A stretch of 64,000 nucleotides of DNA from Spartobacteria bacterium (lineage in GTDB: Bacteria; Verrucomicrobiota; Verrucomicrobiia; Chthoniobacterales; UBA10450). Under the pieces are notes generated by a model, which was given only the letters and a program-made list of their open reading frames with translations, was not told the DNA's origin and did not search any database. The translations under genes were made by a program, and so were the position numbers. Shown here piece after piece: positions 319 to 61,688 of this stretch (positions are counted from its first letter, which is position 1; every line of letters begins with the position of its first letter). Location of the stretch: positions 124,001 through 188,000 of the forward strand of contig PLCN01000022.1 of NCBI GenBank assembly GCA_003134785.1, written 5' to 3'.

Positions 319-556
319 TTATGTGCTCCAGGGCGAGAGGAACGAGCTGCTCGTTAGCGTTATTTTTTTGGGTTAGGACGTCTGACTGCAGAGGTAGAAT
401 TTTGTAATGTTCAAAGGTCTTCATCTGCGTACTACGGAGCCTTTACTTCGAAGTTCTCGAAAAAATTTAAACAACCTACCTGGCGCGACACCGCAGCTCG
501 CTTTCTCCAAGACAACTGACCGTTGAGCGGTTGGTGTGCTTGGCCGAGAGTTGGAA

Positions 557-1096
557 ATGACAACATGCGAGCCACAGGCGGTCCTAGCCTATTGGCTCGT
601 ACCGGCGAAACCACCGCGGAGCTTTTTCACTTCGACGATTGCCGAGCTCGCAGCGCGATATGGTGCGCCAGTCTTCGAGCCACACGTAACGGTTTACGCG
701 AGCAGGAAAGGAGAGGAAAATCCGGAAGAGACCTTGAGCAGCGCTCTCGCGAGATGCGAACCGTTTCGACTTTCCGTTCGCGACATTCAGTGTTCCGACG
801 AGTTTACCAAAACGGTGTTTGTGCGGTTCGAGGCGAGCGCACAGCTCTTGGCGCTAAGTCGCGCGTTTCAACGAACGTCGACTTCGCATGATGAATGCCA
901 ACTTAATCCGCATCTCAGCCTGATTTACAAAGAGATGACGCCCGCGACGAGAGTTGGGGTCGCAGCTTCGATAAAGTTGCCTTTTACCGAAGTGCTGTTC
1001 GATTCGGCGAAGGCCGTTGTCTGCCCGACACCTATCCGATCGCGCGAGGATGTGGAGGCGTGGCGCGTCGTGGCGACCCAGAGGCTGGCCCAATGA
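557..1096 (+). CDS. 2H phosphoesterase / cyclic phosphodiesterase-like protein
   Basis: A 179-aa protein with the two H-x-[ST] motifs of the 2H phosphoesterase superfamily: HVT at residue 43 and HLS at residue 119, about 75 residues apart as in plant and yeast cyclic phosphodiesterases. Such enzymes open 2',3'-cyclic phosphates or ADP-ribose cyclic phosphates. Its stop overlaps the rtcB start (ATGA at 1093-1096), so the two are probably translationally coupled and act in one RNA end-healing and ligation pathway. A GTG at 536 would add seven residues; the ATG at 557 follows GAGAG. Family is solid; the exact substrate is inferred. Confidence 0.82.
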   Translation: MTTCEPQAVLAYWLVPAKPPRSFFTSTIAELAARYGAPVFEPHVTVYASRKGEENPEETLSSALARCEPFRLSVRDIQCSDEFTKTVFVRFEASAQLLALSRAFQRTSTSHDECQLNPHLSLIYKEMTPATRVGVAASIKLPFTEVLFDSAKAVVCPTPIRSREDVEAWRVVATQRLAQ

Positions 1097-2133
1097 AGAC
1101 GAAGATTTTTGGCGAGCACGATGAGTCGACCATCGCGCAAATTGATCGGTGTGTGGCGGCGGGCGGCGAGCGCGGGGTCTTGTGCGCGGATGGTCACAAG
1201 GGGTATGCGCAGCCGATCGGAGGTGTCGTGGCTTACAAAGACAAGATCTCGCTTTCGGGAGTTGGGTTCGATATTGCGTGCGGGAATCTTGCCATCCGCA
1301 CGGACGCGATGCGTTCGCAAATCGCGCCGGCGATGGAAGAGATCATGGACGAGGTGGTGCGGGACATTTCTTTCGGCATCGGGAGGACGAGCAAGACGCG
1401 GATCGACCATGAGCTGTTTGATGATCCGGCGTGGAGCTTGCGGCCATTGGCGGAGCTGAAGCAAAGTGCGGCGGCGCAACTCGGCACGGTCGGAGGCGGC
1501 AATCATTATGTGGATATTTTTGCGGACGAGGCGGACCGCATTTGGGTCGGCGTGCATTTTGGATCGAGAGGACTCGGACATAAGACGGCCACTTATTTTC
1601 TGAAGGAGGCGGGAGGCAAGGATGGAATGGATGTGCCGCCTACGGTGGTTTTGGATGCGTCGGCGCTCGGGGAGAATTATGTCGCGGCAATGACGTTGGT
1701 AGGACGTTACGCGTACGCAGGTCGTGAGGCGGTGGCGCGGCATGTGGTGCGCGGGATCTTGCGGGCGCAAGTCGTCGAGGAAATTCACAACCATCACAAC
1801 TTCGCCTGGCGGGAGGACCATGAGGGCGAGCGATATTGGGTCGTTCGAAAAGGCGCGACGCCGGCGTTTCCTGGTCAGAAAGGTTTTATCGGCGGGAGCA
1901 TGGGCGATGACGCTGTCATTGTCGAAGGCGTCGATTCGTCGATCTCGCGCGACGCGCTTTTTTCTACGGTTCATGGCGCGGGACGAATCATGTCGCGCAC
2001 AGCCGCGAAAGGGCGATTCGTAAAGATCGAAGGCAAACGTGTTCGAACCGACGGTCTCGTTAGGCATGACGAGATGATGGGGTGGATTGCCGATAAAGGC
2101 GTTGTCTTGCGTGGCGGTAGTGTCCTAATTTGA
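1093..2133 (+). CDS. rtcB: RtcB-type RNA ligase, 5' portion, 3' end cut off by a transposon
   Basis: RtcB joins 2',3'-cyclic-phosphate or 3'-phosphate RNA ends to 5'-OH ends using GTP and Mn2+. Expected ligand residues are visible: D60 and C63 in GVGFDIACGN, H138 in GGGNHY, H155 in VGVHFGSRG, histidines in IHNHHNF (231-236), and the guanylylated histidine motif HGAGR at 294. The frame is normal to codon 341, then enters the transposon repeat at 2116 and stops after five foreign residues. The remaining 48 codons lie at 6295-6441. The residual 346-aa product lacks the C-terminal segment, including the DPYKD end whose lysine in the archaeal enzyme contacts the guanine, so it is probably inactive. 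Coupled to the upstream 2H phosphoesterase by an ATGA overlap. Confidence 0.93.
   Translation: MKTKIFGEHDESTIAQIDRCVAAGGERGVLCADGHKGYAQPIGGVVAYKDKISLSGVGFDIACGNLAIRTDAMRSQIAPAMEEIMDEVVRDISFGIGRTSKTRIDHELFDDPAWSLRPLAELKQSAAAQLGTVGGGNHYVDIFADEADRIWVGVHFGSRGLGHKTATYFLKEAGGKDGMDVPPTVVLDASALGENYVAAMTLVGRYAYAGREAVARHVVRGILRAQVVEEIHNHHNFAWREDHEGERYWVVRKGATPAFPGQKGFIGGSMGDDAVIVEGVDSSISRDALFSTVHGAGRIMSRTAAKGRFVKIEGKRVRTDGLVRHDEMMGWIADKGVVLRGGSVLI
2108..2115. repeat. Target-site duplication, left copy
   Basis: TGCGTGGC immediately precedes the left inverted repeat and is repeated directly after the right one at 6287-6294. An 8-bp duplication suits IS1-family transposition. Confidence 0.93.
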
Positions 2134-2135
2134 AA
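2116..2135 (+). repeat. Left terminal inverted repeat (IRL)
   Basis: Reads ggtagtgtcctaatttgaaa. Its reverse complement matches 6267-6286 with one mismatch and 5829-5848 with one different mismatch. Confidence 0.95.
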
Positions 2136-2176
2136 TAATTTCTTTTTTGTTCAAGGCGGTCTATCTTCTCAGACGG

Positions 2177-2368
2177 ATGAAGATCATGGTCTATCTGAAG
2201 TATGAGCGTGGCGACGAAGATCGCGACCCCTCTAGCACATTCTCTGAATATGACGCGCTACAGGCGTCAGTGAAGGACGGGTTTCTCCGAGTAGTCGAAA
2301 GGGTTGGCCAGCGAATCGTTCACGTCTCGCTAGATCAAATTGCGATGTGGACAGAAGAGGAAAAATAA
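2177..2368 (+). CDS. Small hypothetical protein (transposon passenger)
   Basis: A 63-aa acidic frame starting MKIMVYLKYERGDED and ending DQIAMWTEEEK, the first gene inside the left end of the transposon. I do not recognise the family. A start at 2147 would add ten residues, but the ATG at 2177 follows GACGG and gives a more normal N-terminus. It may be a small regulatory or passenger protein; coding status is moderately likely from composition and position. Confidence 0.45.
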   Translation: MKIMVYLKYERGDEDRDPSSTFSEYDALQASVKDGFLRVVERVGQRIVHVSLDQIAMWTEEEK

Positions 2369-2382
2369 AAGGAATTTAGCCG

Positions 2383-3291
2383 CTAAACTGCGGCGTCAAA
2401 CTCCAATTCTGATTCAGGAATCCCCGTCCCGGTAGAGGACTGGTAATACTTCACGCCCTCCTTCTCGCCCGCATAGCCGATTATCGTAACCGGCTTGTCG
2501 TGGTCTTTATTTCGCCAGATCGCCTGTTTTGGATATTCCGACCGAACAATTTTCTTTTTCCAGAGCTTGAGCGTGTCCAACAGGAGATCAAAGTCAGAAT
2601 CCGACATTCCAACAGGGATGGGCGCGTCGCCTATGTCCAGCGGAATTGGAAGGTAGCGAAGATTCGATGTCATTGGTGGAGATGATTGACTAAAGGCATT
2701 TGCAAGCGACCTGTATGGGGGCTTCGCAAGTTCAGCAGCAGAATTTGGTAGAATCTCGTCGTCATTTTGTTGCGTAATTTTATCAGAGTCGAGCAGCTTT
2801 GCAAACGCAATTGTATCCAAATATTGATCGATAAGAGCTTTTCCAGCCGGCTCAGTAAAATGGAGCTCGAAAACCAAATAATCATGAATGGCTCCCTCGG
2901 ATGCTCCATCCGCACCGAATTTTTGCCATAGTTTTGCGTGAATGCTGGGTAGAAGAGCAGCTTGCTTAATAAGCTGATCGCGATTCGGTGCGGATGGATT
3001 CAAAAGCGTAACTGCCAACTCGGTTAATTTAACCTTCCGCGTGTGGCCGCTGCCTTCAGCGTCAAAAAGCCCGTATTTCCTCATTGCGGAGATCGCTAGG
3101 GGGCCGGTGCTGCTCTTTGCGCCAAATCCCAAGTCTGTAATCGCACGAGATACTAAGACAGATTGTCGGCGATCATGCTCCCAGAACGTCTTTGCTAGTT
3201 CAAGGGCCTTGCTCAAACCGATTGATGGATAATTTGGGCTTCGCTCCCGCTGCTTCGTTCCTGGGGAATTTTGGGTCGTTTTATCAGCCAT
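2383..3291 (-). CDS. Winged-helix-like hypothetical protein (DUF5343-like), transposon passenger
   Basis: A 302-aa soluble protein from the ATG at 3291. Residues ~25-100 (YPSIGLSKALELAKTFWEHD, then MRKYGLFDAEG and VKLTELAVTLL) have the layout of a two-copy winged-helix DNA-binding region, resembling DUF5343-type proteins as far as I recall the family. The middle (~110-160) is helical and the C-terminus (~240-302) looks like a small separate domain. It is transcribed away from the RNA locus at 3370-3670 and could regulate the element; that role is inferred. An alternative start at 3351 adds 20 residues with no obvious ribosome site. Confidence 0.62.
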   Translation of the reverse strand: MADKTTQNSPGTKQRERSPNYPSIGLSKALELAKTFWEHDRRQSVLVSRAITDLGFGAKSSTGPLAISAMRKYGLFDAEGSGHTRKVKLTELAVTLLNPSAPNRDQLIKQAALLPSIHAKLWQKFGADGASEGAIHDYLVFELHFTEPAGKALIDQYLDTIAFAKLLDSDKITQQNDDEILPNSAAELAKPPYRSLANAFSQSSPPMTSNLRYLPIPLDIGDAPIPVGMSDSDFDLLLDTLKLWKKKIVRSEYPKQAIWRNKDHDKPVTIIGYAGEKEGVKYYQSSTGTGIPESELEFDAAV

Positions 3292-3369
3292 AGGACAGAA
3301 ATTAGACCAATATTCGAGCCTGTCTAGATAAAAGTTTATATAAAACTCCAAGCTTTACATAAAAGTGAG

Positions 3370-3400
3370 TTGACAGTCCTATCAGATCATTCGATATTAT
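3370..3400 (+). promoter_or_regulatory. Sigma-70-like promoter for the structured RNA / tRNA-like locus
   Basis: A perfect TTGACA at 3370-3375 is followed by TATTAT at 3395-3400 (19-bp spacer) or GATATT at 3393-3398 (17-bp spacer). No plus-strand protein frame begins downstream until 3948. The expected transcript would start near 3407 and run through the hairpins and the tRNA-like sequence. Confidence 0.6.
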
Positions 3401-3406
3401 AGTCGA

Positions 3407-3597
3407 AGGATTGATTAAGGGTGATGATCAGAAGACATGCGTGCCCCGTGGTTGCGATGCGCCGGACGGCGGGGCGTGGTAGGCCGGGAGAGTAAATCCT
3501 TTGGGAAGAGGCCCATTCTCTCCCGGCCAACAGGCGCTAAAAGAGGGGCGAAACGTCCAATCCGTTCGCGCCCTCCAGTCACACTTAAAGTCAATTT
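3407..3597 (+). ncRNA. Putative structured non-coding RNA with three successive hairpins
   Basis: Three stems lie in tandem between the promoter and the tRNA-like sequence: GCCCCG...CGGGGC near 3442-3476; a perfect 11-bp stem ggccgggagag (3482-3492) with ctctcccggcc (3518-3528), enclosing a smaller TGGG/CCCA stem; and AGGGGCGAA paired with TTCGCGCCCT near 3543-3574 with one bulged base. No plausible protein is encoded. I do not recognise the RNA class. It may be the leader of the tRNA-like gene or an independent RNA of the transposon. Exact ends are not determined. Confidence 0.5.
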
Positions 3598-3670
3598 GGG
3601 GCCGTAGGTTTAACGGTAGAACCAGCAGGATTTACACCGGCAAGTGCGGGTCCAACTCCCGTCGGCTCCA
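3598..3670 (+). tRNA. tRNA-like gene, apparent anticodon UUA (ochre-reading), inside transposon
   Basis: A 73-nt cloverleaf can be drawn. The acceptor GGGGCCG pairs with CGGCTCC (3663-3669) and the discriminator is A3670. The D arm is GGTTT/GAACC around a canonical AACGGTA loop. The anticodon arm is GCAGG-ATTTACA-CCGGC with one A/G mismatch, a 4-nt variable loop follows, and the T arm is GCGGG-TCCAACT-CCCGT. The loop places TTA at 34-36, which would read UAA. C at 37 and C at 55 are unusual, so it may be a tRNA mimic or a decaying gene. CCA is not encoded beyond the acceptor. Confidence 0.55.
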
Positions 3671-3673
3671 TCT

Positions 3674-3693
3674 GACTTTCTGTGCTACATAAT
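3674..3693 (-). repeat. 20-bp repeat, third copy, inverted
   Basis: Reverse complement reads attatgtagcacagaaagtc, matching the two direct copies at 3880 and 3913 in 17 of 20 positions or nearly so (core TGTAGCACA.AAAGTC). It lies 3 bp after the tRNA-like gene and just past the stop of the RHH-like gene, so that gene is bracketed by inverted copies. Confidence 0.75.
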
Positions 3694-3699
3694 CTCATA

Positions 3700-3924
3700 T
3701 CACGCTGCATCAATCAATGTCTTTCTCACCCAAACCGGCAATTTGTTTCCGGCTCGTTTTGCCGCTGCCTCAAATCGACGGAGTTCATCCTGGGAAACGC
3801 GAGCACGGAGAACGTGTTCCTTAGCGGCCCCAGCCGGCAGTTTTGGGCGACCGAGGATTACGGTTTTTCTAGATTTTCTTTTCTGTAGCACAAAAAGTCT
3901 TGACCTAATATATTTCTGTAGCAC
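3700..3924 (-). CDS. Ribbon-helix-helix-like DNA-binding protein (MobC/antitoxin type)
   Basis: A 74-aa basic protein. The core GRPKLPAGAAKEHVLRARVS, then DELRRFEAAAKRAGN and LPVWVRKTLIDAA, has the strand-helix-helix layout of ribbon-helix-helix repressors and MobC-like relaxosome proteins. The start is GTG at 3924; a second in-frame GTG at 3891 would give 63 residues. It is divergent from the transposase, and the 20-bp repeats lie across the shared promoter. A role as repressor of the transposase is therefore likely but inferred. Confidence 0.62.
   Translation of the reverse strand: MLQKYIRSRLFVLQKRKSRKTVILGRPKLPAGAAKEHVLRARVSQDELRRFEAAAKRAGNKLPVWVRKTLIDAA
3880..3899 (+). repeat. 20-bp direct repeat copy 1, possible operator
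   Basis: tttctgtagcacaaaaagtc, ending exactly where the putative -35 TTGACC (3900-3905) of the transposase begins. Spaced 33 bp (about three helical turns) from copy 2. Confidence 0.75.
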
Positions 3925-3927
3925 AAT
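3900..3927 (+). promoter_or_regulatory. Putative transposase promoter overlapped by operators
   Basis: TTGACC at 3900-3905, a 16-bp spacer, then CACAAT at 3922-3927 inside repeat copy 2. The transposase ATG follows at 3948. A repressor on the repeats would cover both promoter boxes. Confidence 0.45.
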
Positions 3928-3932
3928 AAGTC
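3913..3932 (+). repeat. 20-bp direct repeat copy 2, possible operator
   Basis: tttctgtagcacaataagtc, 19/20 identical to copy 1 at 3880-3899. Confidence 0.75.
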
Positions 3933-3947
3933 GAGAAAAGAAATCTT

Positions 3948-4772
3948 ATGGCAAACATCCTCAGCAAAGAAAAACAGATCGCGGTGATTAGTGCACTGGC
4001 AGAGGGAAATTCAATCCGATCAATCGAGCGCATGACGGAAATCCATCGCGATACGATCATGCGCCTTGGTGTGCGCGTCGGCGAAACCTGCCACCAAATC
4101 CTCGATCAGAAAATGCGTGGATTGAATTGCTCTCGCATTGAGATTGATGAGTTGTGGGGATTCATCGGCAAGAAAAAGTTTCATGCTAATCGCGCAGATC
4201 GCGCTGAGGGACTTGGGGACGTTTGGACTTTCCTGAGCATTGACCCCGTTACAAAAATCATTCCTTCCTACGTTGTGGGAAAGCGCGACCGATATCATGC
4301 AACGGTGTTCTTGGAAGATTTGGCATCACGTCTCAACAATCGGATTCAGCTTTCGAGTGATGCAATGAACGCATATCCCGATTCAGTCGAACGAGCGTTT
4401 GGCGCTGACATTGATTACGGACAGATCGTAAAGGAGTATTCATCCCCGACCGTGGAAGACCAGCGTAAGTACAGCCCCGCGACGCTGAGCGCCGTGTACA
4501 AGACCGCGATTGTCGGCGACCCGAATCCTGACTTGGTTTGCACGTCGTACATCGAAAGGGCGAACCTCACGATGCGGACACATTGCAAACGTCTCGCTCG
4601 TCTCACGCTGGCGTTCTCGAAAAAACTCCACAACTTCAAGGCCGCAATCGCGCTCAACGTCGCGTATTACAATCTTGTGAAAACCCACGGCACGCTCCGT
4701 TGCACGCCCGCAATGGCCGCTGGCGTCGAGAGCAGTGCGTGGACGATTGCCGATCTAGTCGATGCCTCCTAA
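3948..4772 (+). CDS. IS1-family-like DDE transposase
   Basis: A 274-aa single-frame transposase. Residues ~8-45 form a helix-turn-helix (LAEGNSIRSIERMTEIHRDT). Likely DDE residues are D67 in IDELWGFIGKK, D138 in LSSDAMNAYPDSV and E203 in YIERANLTMR, followed by the basic LARLTLAFSKKLHN segment seen in IS1-type enzymes. Unlike classical IS1 there is no separate InsA zinc-finger frame and no frameshift. It would act on the 20-bp ends at 2116 and 6267. Its last codons overlap the start of the next gene (ATG at 4762), implying coupled translation. Confidence 0.9.
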   Translation: MANILSKEKQIAVISALAEGNSIRSIERMTEIHRDTIMRLGVRVGETCHQILDQKMRGLNCSRIEIDELWGFIGKKKFHANRADRAEGLGDVWTFLSIDPVTKIIPSYVVGKRDRYHATVFLEDLASRLNNRIQLSSDAMNAYPDSVERAFGADIDYGQIVKEYSSPTVEDQRKYSPATLSAVYKTAIVGDPNPDLVCTSYIERANLTMRTHCKRLARLTLAFSKKLHNFKAAIALNVAYYNLVKTHGTLRCTPAMAAGVESSAWTIADLVDAS

Positions 4773-5076
4773 GAACGTCCAGAGCCTACAGAGTGCGATC
4801 AAAGCGATGCATGGATGCGGTTCGCGATATGTAGAATCTGTCCCGGTGCATGAAGTGTTTCATGGACAGACTGCGTGGCAAGGAACGGTCGAAGTTTTCG
4901 AGTTGATCGGCCACGTGAAAGCGAAGCGGGCATACACGTGGCAATATGACGAAGGCAAGGACACAAAAACGATCTCTGTTCTTGAAATTCCACCTGTAAA
5001 CTCTCCTCAAAGTGCTGTGAGAGTGGCAATTGCATCCAAAGGGAAAAATTCGTACGAAAGGGACAAAAATGCTTGA
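4762..5076 (+). CDS. Hypothetical protein coupled to transposase
   Basis: A 104-aa protein whose ATG lies 11 bp inside the transposase gene. Features seen: YVESVPVHEVFHGQTAWQG, GHVKAKRAYTW, then SVLEIPPVNSPQSAVRVAI. I recall similar ~100-aa proteins of unknown function in proteobacterial genomes, often near mobile DNA, but cannot name a domain. The overlap suggests co-expression with the transposase; a role as transposition accessory or an independent passenger is equally possible. Confidence 0.65.
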   Translation: MPPKNVQSLQSAIKAMHGCGSRYVESVPVHEVFHGQTAWQGTVEVFELIGHVKAKRAYTWQYDEGKDTKTISVLEIPPVNSPQSAVRVAIASKGKNSYERDKNA

Positions 5077-5143
5077 ACAAGGCGTACGCAATGCTAGTCT
5101 AATGCTTACCTTTAACCGCTACGCCAGTAGGCTGGCACACTCT

Positions 5144-5180
5144 AAACCCCTGAGTCGCTTCGGCGGCTTGGGGGTTTTTG
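5144..5180 (+). terminator. Rho-independent terminator after the transposase operon
   Basis: Stem AACCCC / GGGGTT plus AGTCGC / GCGGCT closed by a TTCG tetraloop, followed by a T-rich run on the plus strand. It lies between the transposase operon and the NYN gene, separating their transcription. Confidence 0.85.
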
Positions 5181-5189
5181 TTTTGCCCC

Positions 5190-5828
5190 ATGAAAGTAGC
5201 AATATTGATTGACGGAGAGTGGTTCAGAATTGCTCTATCCGAACGGCTCGGAGCGGCCCTGAAACCGCATGGCGTAACCGCAGAAGTCGTCCATAAGAAC
5301 GCGCTGCTTGCTGTTCAAAAAGGAGAGTCCGTTACTCGAATCTTTTATTACGATTCCGTGCCGCACGTGGGGAAAACCAGAAATCCAATTAGCAAGAAAT
5401 CTGTTCCCTGCATTAGCCCAGAGAAGGTTGACGCGCGCCATCGCTTTTTCCACGAACTTGGACAGATGCCGCTGATTGCGCTCAGGCGCGGGGTCGTCAA
5501 GCCCAGAGGATGGGTACTGCGAATGGCCTACGTTAAAGAAATGCTAAAGGGCGGCAAGGCACGGCCGTTAACCGCCGATGATGTTACCCTCTCGATGACA
5601 CAAAAAGGGGTTGATATGCGTATCGGGATTGATGTCGCCACATTGTCCCTCAAGAGGCAGGTGGATCGAATAATCCTGATTTCTGGCGATCTGGATATGA
5701 TTCCGGCTATGAAATTGGCAAGACGTGAAGGTGTTCAGGTGGCAATGGTCCAATTAGATAGAAGAAAAATTTCAACTGAACTCGTCGAGGATGCTGATTT
5801 TATTCGCACCATCACTCCGATTCTCTGA
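5190..5828 (+). CDS. NYN-domain (PIN-like, DUF88/LabA-type) putative ribonuclease
   Basis: A 212-aa protein starting MKVAILIDGEWF. The NYN/PIN-like acidic residues appear in order: D8 in the first strand, D142/D148 in KGVDMRIGIDVATLS, and D167/D169 in LISGDLDMIPA. DUF88/NYN proteins are metal-dependent RNA nucleases or regulators; RNA targets here are unknown. The ATG at 5190 lies just after the terminator, leaving no clear promoter in between, so it may depend on read-through or on the terminator region. Its TGA directly touches the internal inverted repeat at 5829, marking it as an original passenger of the element. Confidence 0.85.
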   Translation: MKVAILIDGEWFRIALSERLGAALKPHGVTAEVVHKNALLAVQKGESVTRIFYYDSVPHVGKTRNPISKKSVPCISPEKVDARHRFFHELGQMPLIALRRGVVKPRGWVLRMAYVKEMLKGGKARPLTADDVTLSMTQKGVDMRIGIDVATLSLKRQVDRIILISGDLDMIPAMKLARREGVQVAMVQLDRRKISTELVEDADFIRTITPIL

Positions 5829-5848
5829 TTTCAAATTAAGACACTACC
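5829..5848 (-). repeat. Internal second copy of the right inverted repeat
   Basis: tttcaaattaagacactacc; its reverse complement matches IRL 2116-2135 in 19 of 20 positions, as well as the outermost IRR does. It begins at the base after the NYN stop codon, so a shorter element 2116-5848 is structurally complete. Confidence 0.92.
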
Positions 5849-5930
5849 TGTTTTGTCCCTCTTTCCCTGGCAGCGAGTCAAAATGATTACGACTTTAGCT
5901 ACGACTTTCTGACTGCCTCTCGCCTGAATC

Positions 5931-6257
5931 GTGGCTAAGGTCTTTAAATTCCGAAGTCGGTTTGTCGATTTTTTGGTCTATGTCACGTTCGATATGGATG
6001 CTTACCGCCGAGGCGAAATCCCTAGCAATCAGCCAACCGTGCTTTGCGATGGGAAGCCTACAGATGTAATTCTTCCCGCTTACAAAGCATGGATGCACTC
6101 CGTCATGTCGGAGATAGCAAAGCGGATCGACGAAGAAATTGTGTACTCTCTGCCCATTACGCTTGAGCCGAATCGCAATACCCCAGCGAGCAATTCTGAG
6201 GTTTGGATATACTATCCAGATGGCAACTATGAGCGTGCCAAAGAACCGCCGAATTGA
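5931..6257 (+). CDS. Hypothetical protein in the outer module of the transposon
   Basis: A 108-aa frame from GTG at 5931 (or 87 aa from ATG 5994), with sequence such as VYVTFDMDAYRRGEIPSNQP and VWIYYPDGNYERAKEPPN. No family recognised. It is the only frame of sensible composition between the internal repeat (5848) and the outermost repeat (6267), and it ends 10 bp before that repeat, like the NYN gene before its own. No strong ribosome site precedes either start. Confidence 0.45.
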   Translation: MAKVFKFRSRFVDFLVYVTFDMDAYRRGEIPSNQPTVLCDGKPTDVILPAYKAWMHSVMSEIAKRIDEEIVYSLPITLEPNRNTPASNSEVWIYYPDGNYERAKEPPN

Positions 6258-6266
6258 ATCGAGCGC

Positions 6267-6286
6267 TTTCAAATTAGGACACGACC
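6267..6286 (-). repeat. Right terminal inverted repeat (IRR)
   Basis: tttcaaattaggacacgacc, inverted match to IRL with one mismatch, followed directly by the TGCGTGGC duplication. Confidence 0.95.
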
Positions 6287-6294
6287 TGCGTGGC
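6287..6294. repeat. Target-site duplication, right copy
   Basis: TGCGTGGC, identical to 2108-2115. Confidence 0.93.
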
Positions 6295-6441
6295 GGCGAT
6301 CTCGACGAAGCGCCACAAGCTTATCGGCGATTGCCGGATGTGCTCGACGCACATGCGGGGACAATCCGGATTTTGCACACCCTGACGCCGCTGGGTGTGG
6401 CGATGGCGGGACGCAACGTCGTGGACCCGTACAAAGACTGA
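6295..6441 (+). pseudogene. rtcB: 3' fragment of rtcB severed by the transposon
   Basis: Encodes GDLDEAPQAYRRLPDVLDAH, then AGTIRILHTLTPLGVAMAG and DPYKD-stop, which is the usual RtcB C-terminus. In phase with the 5' part once 2116-6294 is removed (codon 341 is followed directly by this fragment). No start codon or promoter of its own is evident. Confidence 0.93.
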
Positions 6442-6504
6442 CTGTAGCGGCGGTCTATGACCGCCGGGCTTTGGGATTTCGGCGGTCATAGACCGCCGCT
6501 GCAG
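6442..6504. repeat. Palindromic intergenic repeat, family A (copy 1)
   Basis: Arms ctgtagcggcggtctatgac... and its inverse around a 14-bp spacer; starts at the base after the rtcB stop. The same arms recur at 48778, 49809 and 61564. Confidence 0.9.
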
Positions 6505-48777: not shown

Positions 48778-48852
48778 CTGTAGCGGCGGTCTATGACCGC
48801 CGAACGCGTCGCGGAATTGAAAGCTCTCGGCGGTCATAGACCGCCGCTACAG
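48778..48852. repeat. Palindromic intergenic repeat, family A (copy 2)
   Basis: Arms ctgtagcggcggtctatgac... and its inverse around a 25-bp spacer. On the minus strand its CTGTAG supplies the TAG stop of the LigD-type polymerase gene. Confidence 0.92.
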
Positions 48853-49808: not shown

Positions 49809-49894
49809 ATCCCCTGTAGCGGCGGTCTATGACCGCCGAACGCGCCAAATGCAATACCACCATTCGGCGGTCATAGACCGCCGCTACAGGGGAT
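49809..49894. repeat. Palindromic intergenic repeat, family A (copy 3)
   Basis: Arms atcccctgtagcggcggtct... and its inverse ending acaggggat. It touches the first base of the lpxK stop codon (49894-49896). Confidence 0.92.
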
Positions 49895-61563: not shown

Positions 61564-61688
61564 CTGTAGCGGCGGTCTATGACCGCCGTGTTTCTTACAA
61601 GGAGCGGCGGTCTCCAGACCGCCGTGTTAGGTGTGGGCGGTTTGGAAAGCGCCCCTCCGTGGTTTCGGCGGTCATAGACCGCCGCTAC
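61564..61688. repeat. Palindromic intergenic repeat, family A (copy 4, nested)
   Basis: Outer arms gctgtagcggcggtctatga... and its inverse enclose a smaller palindrome gcggcggtctccagaccgcc near 61604-61624, which is the A-variant arm seen at 46781. Confidence 0.92.

Follow-up and report, generated by a model that had tools for sequence, protein, structure and literature searches.

An IS1-like cargo transposon inserted in rtcB of a Spartobacteria genome and its tRNA-like gene with a probable stop anticodon

The stretch of DNA analysed here (hereafter the window; 64,000 nucleotides of contig PLCN01000022.1 from a Spartobacteria bacterium) holds an rtcB gene that is split by a transposon of 4171 bp (window 2116-6286), and the question raised by this locus is what kind of element has entered the gene and what a tRNA-like gene might be doing between its ends. 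An insertion sequence (IS) is commonly viewed as a transposase with its ends, sometimes accompanied by cargo, and the tRNA-like gene, the most unusual component of the element, has no counterpart in the papers searched. We observe that the 4.17-kb element is a complete member of an apparently unrecognised Verrucomicrobiota family of IS1-like cargo transposons. If its RNA is charged (with alanine here) and competes weakly at UAA codons, the tRNA-like gene would be a transposon-borne nonsense-suppressor-like tRNA, a reading that we consider evenly poised between right and wrong. The host is a metagenome-assembled Spartobacteria-like genome (97% complete; 4.39 Mb spread over 25 contigs), and it and most relatives discussed below are metagenome-assembled genomes or viral contigs.

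The insertion in rtcB

The element inserted into rtcB, truncating the gene and duplicating 8 bp of target, and both borders are exact to the base. Its terminal inverted repeats are 20 bp long with 19 of 20 positions matching (left, forward strand, 2116-2135, GGTAGTGTCCTAATTTGAAA; right, reverse strand, 6267-6286), and the target duplication TGCGTGGC is identical at 2108-2115 and 6287-6294. The 5' part of rtcB (1093-2133, forward strand; Pfam RtcB, 7.8e-56) consists of host DNA up to position 2115, after which five element-derived codons lead to a stop, with the interrupted protein terminating in ...VVLRGGSVLI*. The 3' part (6295-6441, forward strand; GDLDEAPQAY...DPYKD) follows directly after the right copy of the duplication. 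When the empty site predicted in an earlier note on this DNA was assembled in silico (1093-2115 joined to 6295-6441), a single frame of 389 codons was obtained, running through VVLRGGDLDEAPQAY. The claim of that note that a passenger-carrying IS1-like transposon splits rtcB, made on the basis of its ends, the exact duplication and the in-frame rejoining, is thus borne out.

A natural RtcB end at codon 346 is a poor alternative, because the 3' fragment (GDLDEAPQAY...GVAM) aligns with the C-terminus of solved archaeal RtcB structures. Searching the host's own genome for the ends (up to 3 mismatches) returned only this site and, on a different contig, one degenerate copy; a 37% homologue apart, the genome has no second transposase of this kind. 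Repeat-driven misassembly is therefore unlikely. Two features go beyond what the earlier note described, namely a second, right-end-like repeat inside the element (5829-5848) and the tRNA-like gene (3598-3670).

A transposon family with a tRNA-like gene upstream of its transposase

Relatives of the transposase that are 55-80% identical occur in the same order and class, with more distant ones on plasmids of other phyla. For more than 25 loci in viral contigs and other Verrucomicrobiota, similar ends and exact 8-bp duplications fix both borders to the base, and these elements are mostly 2.2-4.4 kb long and fall into two subgroups by their ends (GGTAGTGTCCTAATTTGAAA and GGTAGTGGCTCAGTTTGAAA). 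Compared at the sequence level, they reveal a core composed of a hairpin with the tRNA-like gene, often a ribbon-helix-helix regulator, the transposase and a partner gene of about 100 amino acids (aa), the remainder being exchangeable cargo that includes a DNA methylase (L040), a SocA_Panacea antitoxin (L055), an HTH-peptidase M78 protein (L047), P63C (L049) and other HTH proteins. Three further family- and order-wide genome searches took in 12, 11 and 7 genomes. A scan of viral contigs with a single protein gave no match, and alignment-based searches of viral contigs gave many. No description of such elements was found in the literature searched, a scope that left most subscription papers and preprints outside.

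In the window, ARAGORN reports a tRNA-Stop(tta) at 3597-3672 and no tmRNA, and the forward-strand gene, placed at 3598-3670, matches Rfam RF00005 with 39.1 bits (cut-off 29). Its minimum-energy fold is a cloverleaf, with an unexceptional energy (z = −1.5); it has UUA in a 7-nucleotide (nt) loop, AUUUACA (an 8-nt loop is also possible), G3:U70 and A73, and no encoded CCA. An alignment of 12 tRNA-like copies, on which we built a model (R1), is paired in 98.8% of cells in the acceptor stem and 95% in the T stem, with double changes in 15 of the 21 pairs. The covariation score is 0.427, against 0.187 for shuffled alignments (none of 500 shuffles reaches the observed score) and at most 0.16 for slid controls. 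Covariation across these aligned sequences thus shows, in silico, a gene whose RNA would be under selection for its fold. While pairs 4-7 covary, position 3-70 is G-U in 11 of the 12 copies, and every copy has an A discriminator.

The gene also keeps a fixed position. At transposase-bearing loci, 35 of 58 covariance-model hits lie on the transposase strand and start 95-380 bp before the transposase start, with 1.3 expected (counting hits within 450 bp upstream of the transposase; a few duplicates are included, as some loci, e.g., L166/L237 and L280-L282, overlap on one and the same viral contig). ARAGORN alone finds a tRNA in 21 of 141 viral-contig stretches upstream of the transposase versus 3 of 398 control stretches, and in nine copies with exact duplications (L038, L039, L040, L043, L088, L089, L090, L094 and L101) the tRNA-like gene lies inside the element. 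Besides the Ala-like backbone, Gln/Glu-like and Leu-like backbones occur in related transposons, and on a tree of 96 transposases the copies group by tRNA type (16 changes versus 28.3 when shuffled): the clade that includes the window has most of the Ala-like copies, a neighbouring clade has most of the Gln/Glu-like ones, and Leu-like copies lie elsewhere. R1 was dropped as a genome-wide detector because ordinary tRNA-Lys genes reach about 64 bits.

Two known classes of unusual RNA were set aside. A tmRNA, whose tRNA-like domain is interrupted by a stretch that encodes a tag, is ruled out by the contiguous cloverleaf. Allo-tRNAs and irregular soil tRNAs were reportedly described by Mukai et al. 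in 2017; allo-tRNAs have acceptor/T arms of 8/4 or 9/3 according to the passages seen of a review (PMC7609411), and the arms here are 7/5, so the gene is not an allo-tRNA. According to the same passages, allo-tRNAs occur in soil metagenomes, include G3:U70 variants and are charged independently of the anticodon, as is predicted for this gene, and one irregular soil class may associate with transposable elements, which is the closest published lead for the RNA; those passages describe no family of IS1-like transposons that has a tRNA at a set place upstream (PMC7609411).

Readings of the apparent stop anticodon

Across relatives, the anticodon loop follows the consensus [U/C/A][U/C]ACA; the anticodon is mostly UUA, with CUA and UCA in some relatives, all of them stop-reading. 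Read from the best 7-nt loop, it is UUA in the window and in L038, L041, L043, L088, L089, L096, L101, L166, L170, L218, L275 and L280, and CUA in L130, L173 and L256; by register, L090 has UCA, and L091 and L219 have CUA. In the Leu-like copies L275 and L280, which have a long variable arm, the loops are fully canonical (CUUUAAA) and UUA is unambiguous. A change from UUA to CUA or UCA is a transition, the most frequent type of mutation, so those cases are weak evidence taken alone.

The anticodon is ignored by alanyl- and leucyl-tRNA synthetases, the former of which recognises its tRNA chiefly by G3:U70; the three tRNA-Ala genes of the host carry G3:U70 as well. Judged on sequence alone, both the tRNA fold and the synthetase identity elements are present. 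The RNA would most likely be charged by a synthetase that ignores the anticodon, in the window with alanine because of G3:U70 and A73, and its UUA anticodon would then make it a weak competitor of release factor at UAA codons. We favour such a chargeable suppressor because Ala- and Leu-like synthetases do not read the anticodon and because the stop anticodon recurs on different backbones. Our wider proposal, that a widespread family keeps its own chargeable stop-anticodon tRNA beside the transposase, recruited repeatedly from different tRNA species, and that mobile DNA in this way manipulates the reading of stop codons by the host, is put forward tentatively, as somewhat less probable than not. 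If true, a core tRNA-like RNA that is conserved in place and shape, with stop anticodons on different backbones, would link transposition with translation, and natural suppressor tRNAs would gain a mobile home.

Several observations weigh against a suppressor. Many related transposons have no tRNA, and some have sense anticodons upstream (UAC in L224, UCC in L327, GCU in L357, AGU in L382 and UGC in L459, as well as AUA in L039), those of L327, L357, L382 and L459 sitting on unusual backbones. Many copies have a mismatch or bulge in the anticodon stem and fold equally well, or better, with an 8-nt loop, and C37 is unusual. Given these stem defects, the 8-nt option and the similar loop of the host tRNA-Val(UAC), the register is not firmly fixed in all copies. 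The T-loop reads TCC rather than TTC in many copies, including the window, while 48 of 49 host tRNAs keep TTC. The stop codons of the transposases show neither avoidance of suppression nor a need for it, TAA and TAG together making up 13 of 29 with a tRNA versus 49 of 104 without. A search for readthrough targets (all element frames, cognate stop as X, across loci) yielded thousands of antisense and intergenic alignments and nothing usable.

A serious rival is that the RNA is tRNA-shaped but non-decoding and is useful to the transposon otherwise: it could be an RNase P/RNase Z processing signal before the transposase mRNA, for instance, or a regulatory RNA pairing by its anticodon loop with the upstream hairpin, the stop anticodon being tolerated because it does little harm. 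We regard this as a real possibility, though we would sooner bet against it than for it. A mismatched anticodon stem beside a conserved loop, a T-loop TCC that recurs on copies with different backbones, unlike in normal host tRNAs, and a cluster of hairpins upstream of the gene are all in line with it. In the window, moreover, the hairpin loop at 3492-3500 and the anticodon arm (3627-3635) match perfectly as complements along 9 nt, and L041 has a perfect complementarity of 8 nt (P about 0.01-0.02 for the two); however, in most other copies the complementarity is at chance level, being significant only in these two. A non-decoding RNA would not need conserved G3:U70 and A73 either, and the Leu-like copies have fully canonical anticodon loops.

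We consider it unlikely that these are instead expanded tRNAs with 8-nt loops and a (U/C)UAC anticodon, derived from the arms of tRNA-Val(UAC) and acting by +1 frameshifting or Val-to-Ala misreading. The 8-nt loop gives the better fold in L039, L043, L046, L170, L176 and L186, places A at position 37 in most copies and resembles the loop of the host tRNA-Val(UAC) (GGTTTACACCC, compared with GGATTTACACC in the element), and L224 has a canonical UAC loop. Nevertheless, the Leu-like copies, L218 and L256 lack UAC and keep stop anticodons, L091, L130, L173 and L039 would have a C or an A at position 33, and the transposase reads as one frame without a visible shift. That host or phage tRNA genes were captured and are now decaying as passengers, functionless for the transposon, is already disfavoured and very improbable: the several backbones and anticodons, the many relatives without a tRNA and a decayed element in the host's own genome that adjoins a normal tRNA-Cys would suit such an origin, but not the fixed position and strand, the strong covariation and a tRNA that is 94.5% identical between the window and L038 when the transposase DNA is 77.3% identical.

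In one relative (L043; G193:C99), the transposase is broken by an in-frame TAG, yet the element has a UUA tRNA-like gene. This transposase is possibly a pseudogene, or possibly of interest for readthrough.

Transposase, cargo and surroundings of the element

The transposase (3948-4772, forward strand, 274 aa) is a single open reading frame (ORF). The description of the element as IS1-family-like holds at the level of Pfam, with PF03400 DDE_Tnp_IS1 at 35.1 bits (cut-off 24.1; 1.9e-8), and does not hold at the stricter cut-off of the NCBIfam IS1 model (59.4 bits, below 100; 4.3e-16). Shared with the IS1 family are the IS1-type DDE transposase domain, terminal inverted repeats of about 20 bp starting with GG(T) and a short target duplication of 8-10 bp, which is 8 bp in this element and in more than 25 relatives. 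Classical IS1 has two overlapping frames joined by a programmed frameshift, in contrast to the single 274-codon frame here, and the mostly 2.2- to 4.4-kb size with cargo, the conserved partner gene and the tRNA-like gene are also unlike IS1. Insertion sequences that carry passengers are known as transporter IS. As in these, one transposase and genes unrelated to transposition lie inside the ends (here an NYN protein, a 304-aa protein and others, in agreement with the several passengers claimed earlier), whereas a non-coding tRNA-like gene in the recurrent core sets this family apart. A functional RNA as a standing component of an insertion sequence is also found in IStrons, which combine an insertion sequence with a group I intron (PMC4227781); IStrons carry a ribozyme, while this family has a tRNA-like RNA, with no evidence of splicing.

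The partner gene (4762-5076, forward strand, 104 aa) has a start that overlaps the transposase stop and is conserved after the transposase in relatives (43 tblastn hits, alignment). Its product is predicted to adopt an alpha-beta4-alpha fold (model pLDDT 88.6), for which no relative was found in Pfam, among PDB sequences or by Foldseek (none below E 0.001); as modelled, the protein has a new fold.

A ribbon-helix-helix/NikA-like regulator gene (3700-3924, reverse strand, 74 aa; Pfam 9.8e-4, below cut-off) lies divergent from the transposase, and its homologues occupy the same place in relatives. Repeat searching found two direct repeats, TTTCTGTAGCACAAxAAGTC (3880-3932), flanking the transposase promoter (TTGACC at 3900, CACAAT at 3927), and an inverted copy of this operator-like motif directly 3' of the tRNA-like gene (3674-3692). 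The direct repeats are probable operators of the regulator, which would probably act through the TGTRGCACA repeats as a repressor of the transposase promoter. A strong hairpin (3479-3531, forward strand) precedes the tRNA-like gene, with hairpins at homologous places in L038, L039 and L041, several of which have T-loop-like sequences (TCCAATC, TTCCAAC); these hairpins and the tRNA-like end may form one longer RNA.

The left end, which recurs in relatives, is followed by a 73-aa cargo ORF (2147-2368, forward strand) with no Pfam or PADLOC match and by the gene for the 304-aa protein (2383-3297, reverse strand), which has no Pfam match, is 47% identical to its L038 counterpart and has a C-terminal part in common with L055. 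Downstream of the partner gene are an intrinsic-terminator-like hairpin with a T-run (5144-5177, forward strand) and the gene for the NYN-domain (LabA-like nuclease) protein (5190-5828, forward strand; Pfam NYN 2.1e-11, PADLOC NYN 3.4e-7). The inner copy of the right end (reverse strand), found by repeat search, has no adjoining duplication, so it was the outer end that served in this insertion. A 108-aa ORF (5931-6257, forward strand) lies between the two right ends, and the 438-bp tail there may have been picked up.

A remnant of a second element is present in the host's genome (contig C10:259278-259707; L054:9279-9707), where a degenerate end and a normal tRNA-Cys(GCA) accompany a partner gene of 46% identity and the final 14 codons of a transposase; the host has another tRNA-Cys besides this one. 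Outside the host, the Brevundimonas jumbo phage vB_BpoS-Gurke carries an unannotated 34%-identical transposase (ON529850.1:174800-175669). In two genomes assigned to different genera (G109 and G159), loci L041 and L042 are near-identical elements that share their flank, which may reflect an orthologous insertion or contamination of one genome bin.

The earlier suggestion that the RNA-repair operon is broken is borne out only in part: this copy of rtcB has lost its last 43 codons, but the upstream cyclic phosphodiesterase/2'-5' RNA ligase-like host gene (536-1096, forward strand; Pfam CPDase 4.4e-8, 2_5_RNA_ligase2 5.3e-7) is intact. Directly after rtcB lies one copy of a palindrome, GCGGTCTATGACCGC, that occurs in the window as pairs in inverted orientation (6450-6496, 48786-48844, 49822-49881 and 61572-61682) and, with 8 exact matches versus 0.2 expected (up to 2 mismatches), is an extragenic palindromic repeat.

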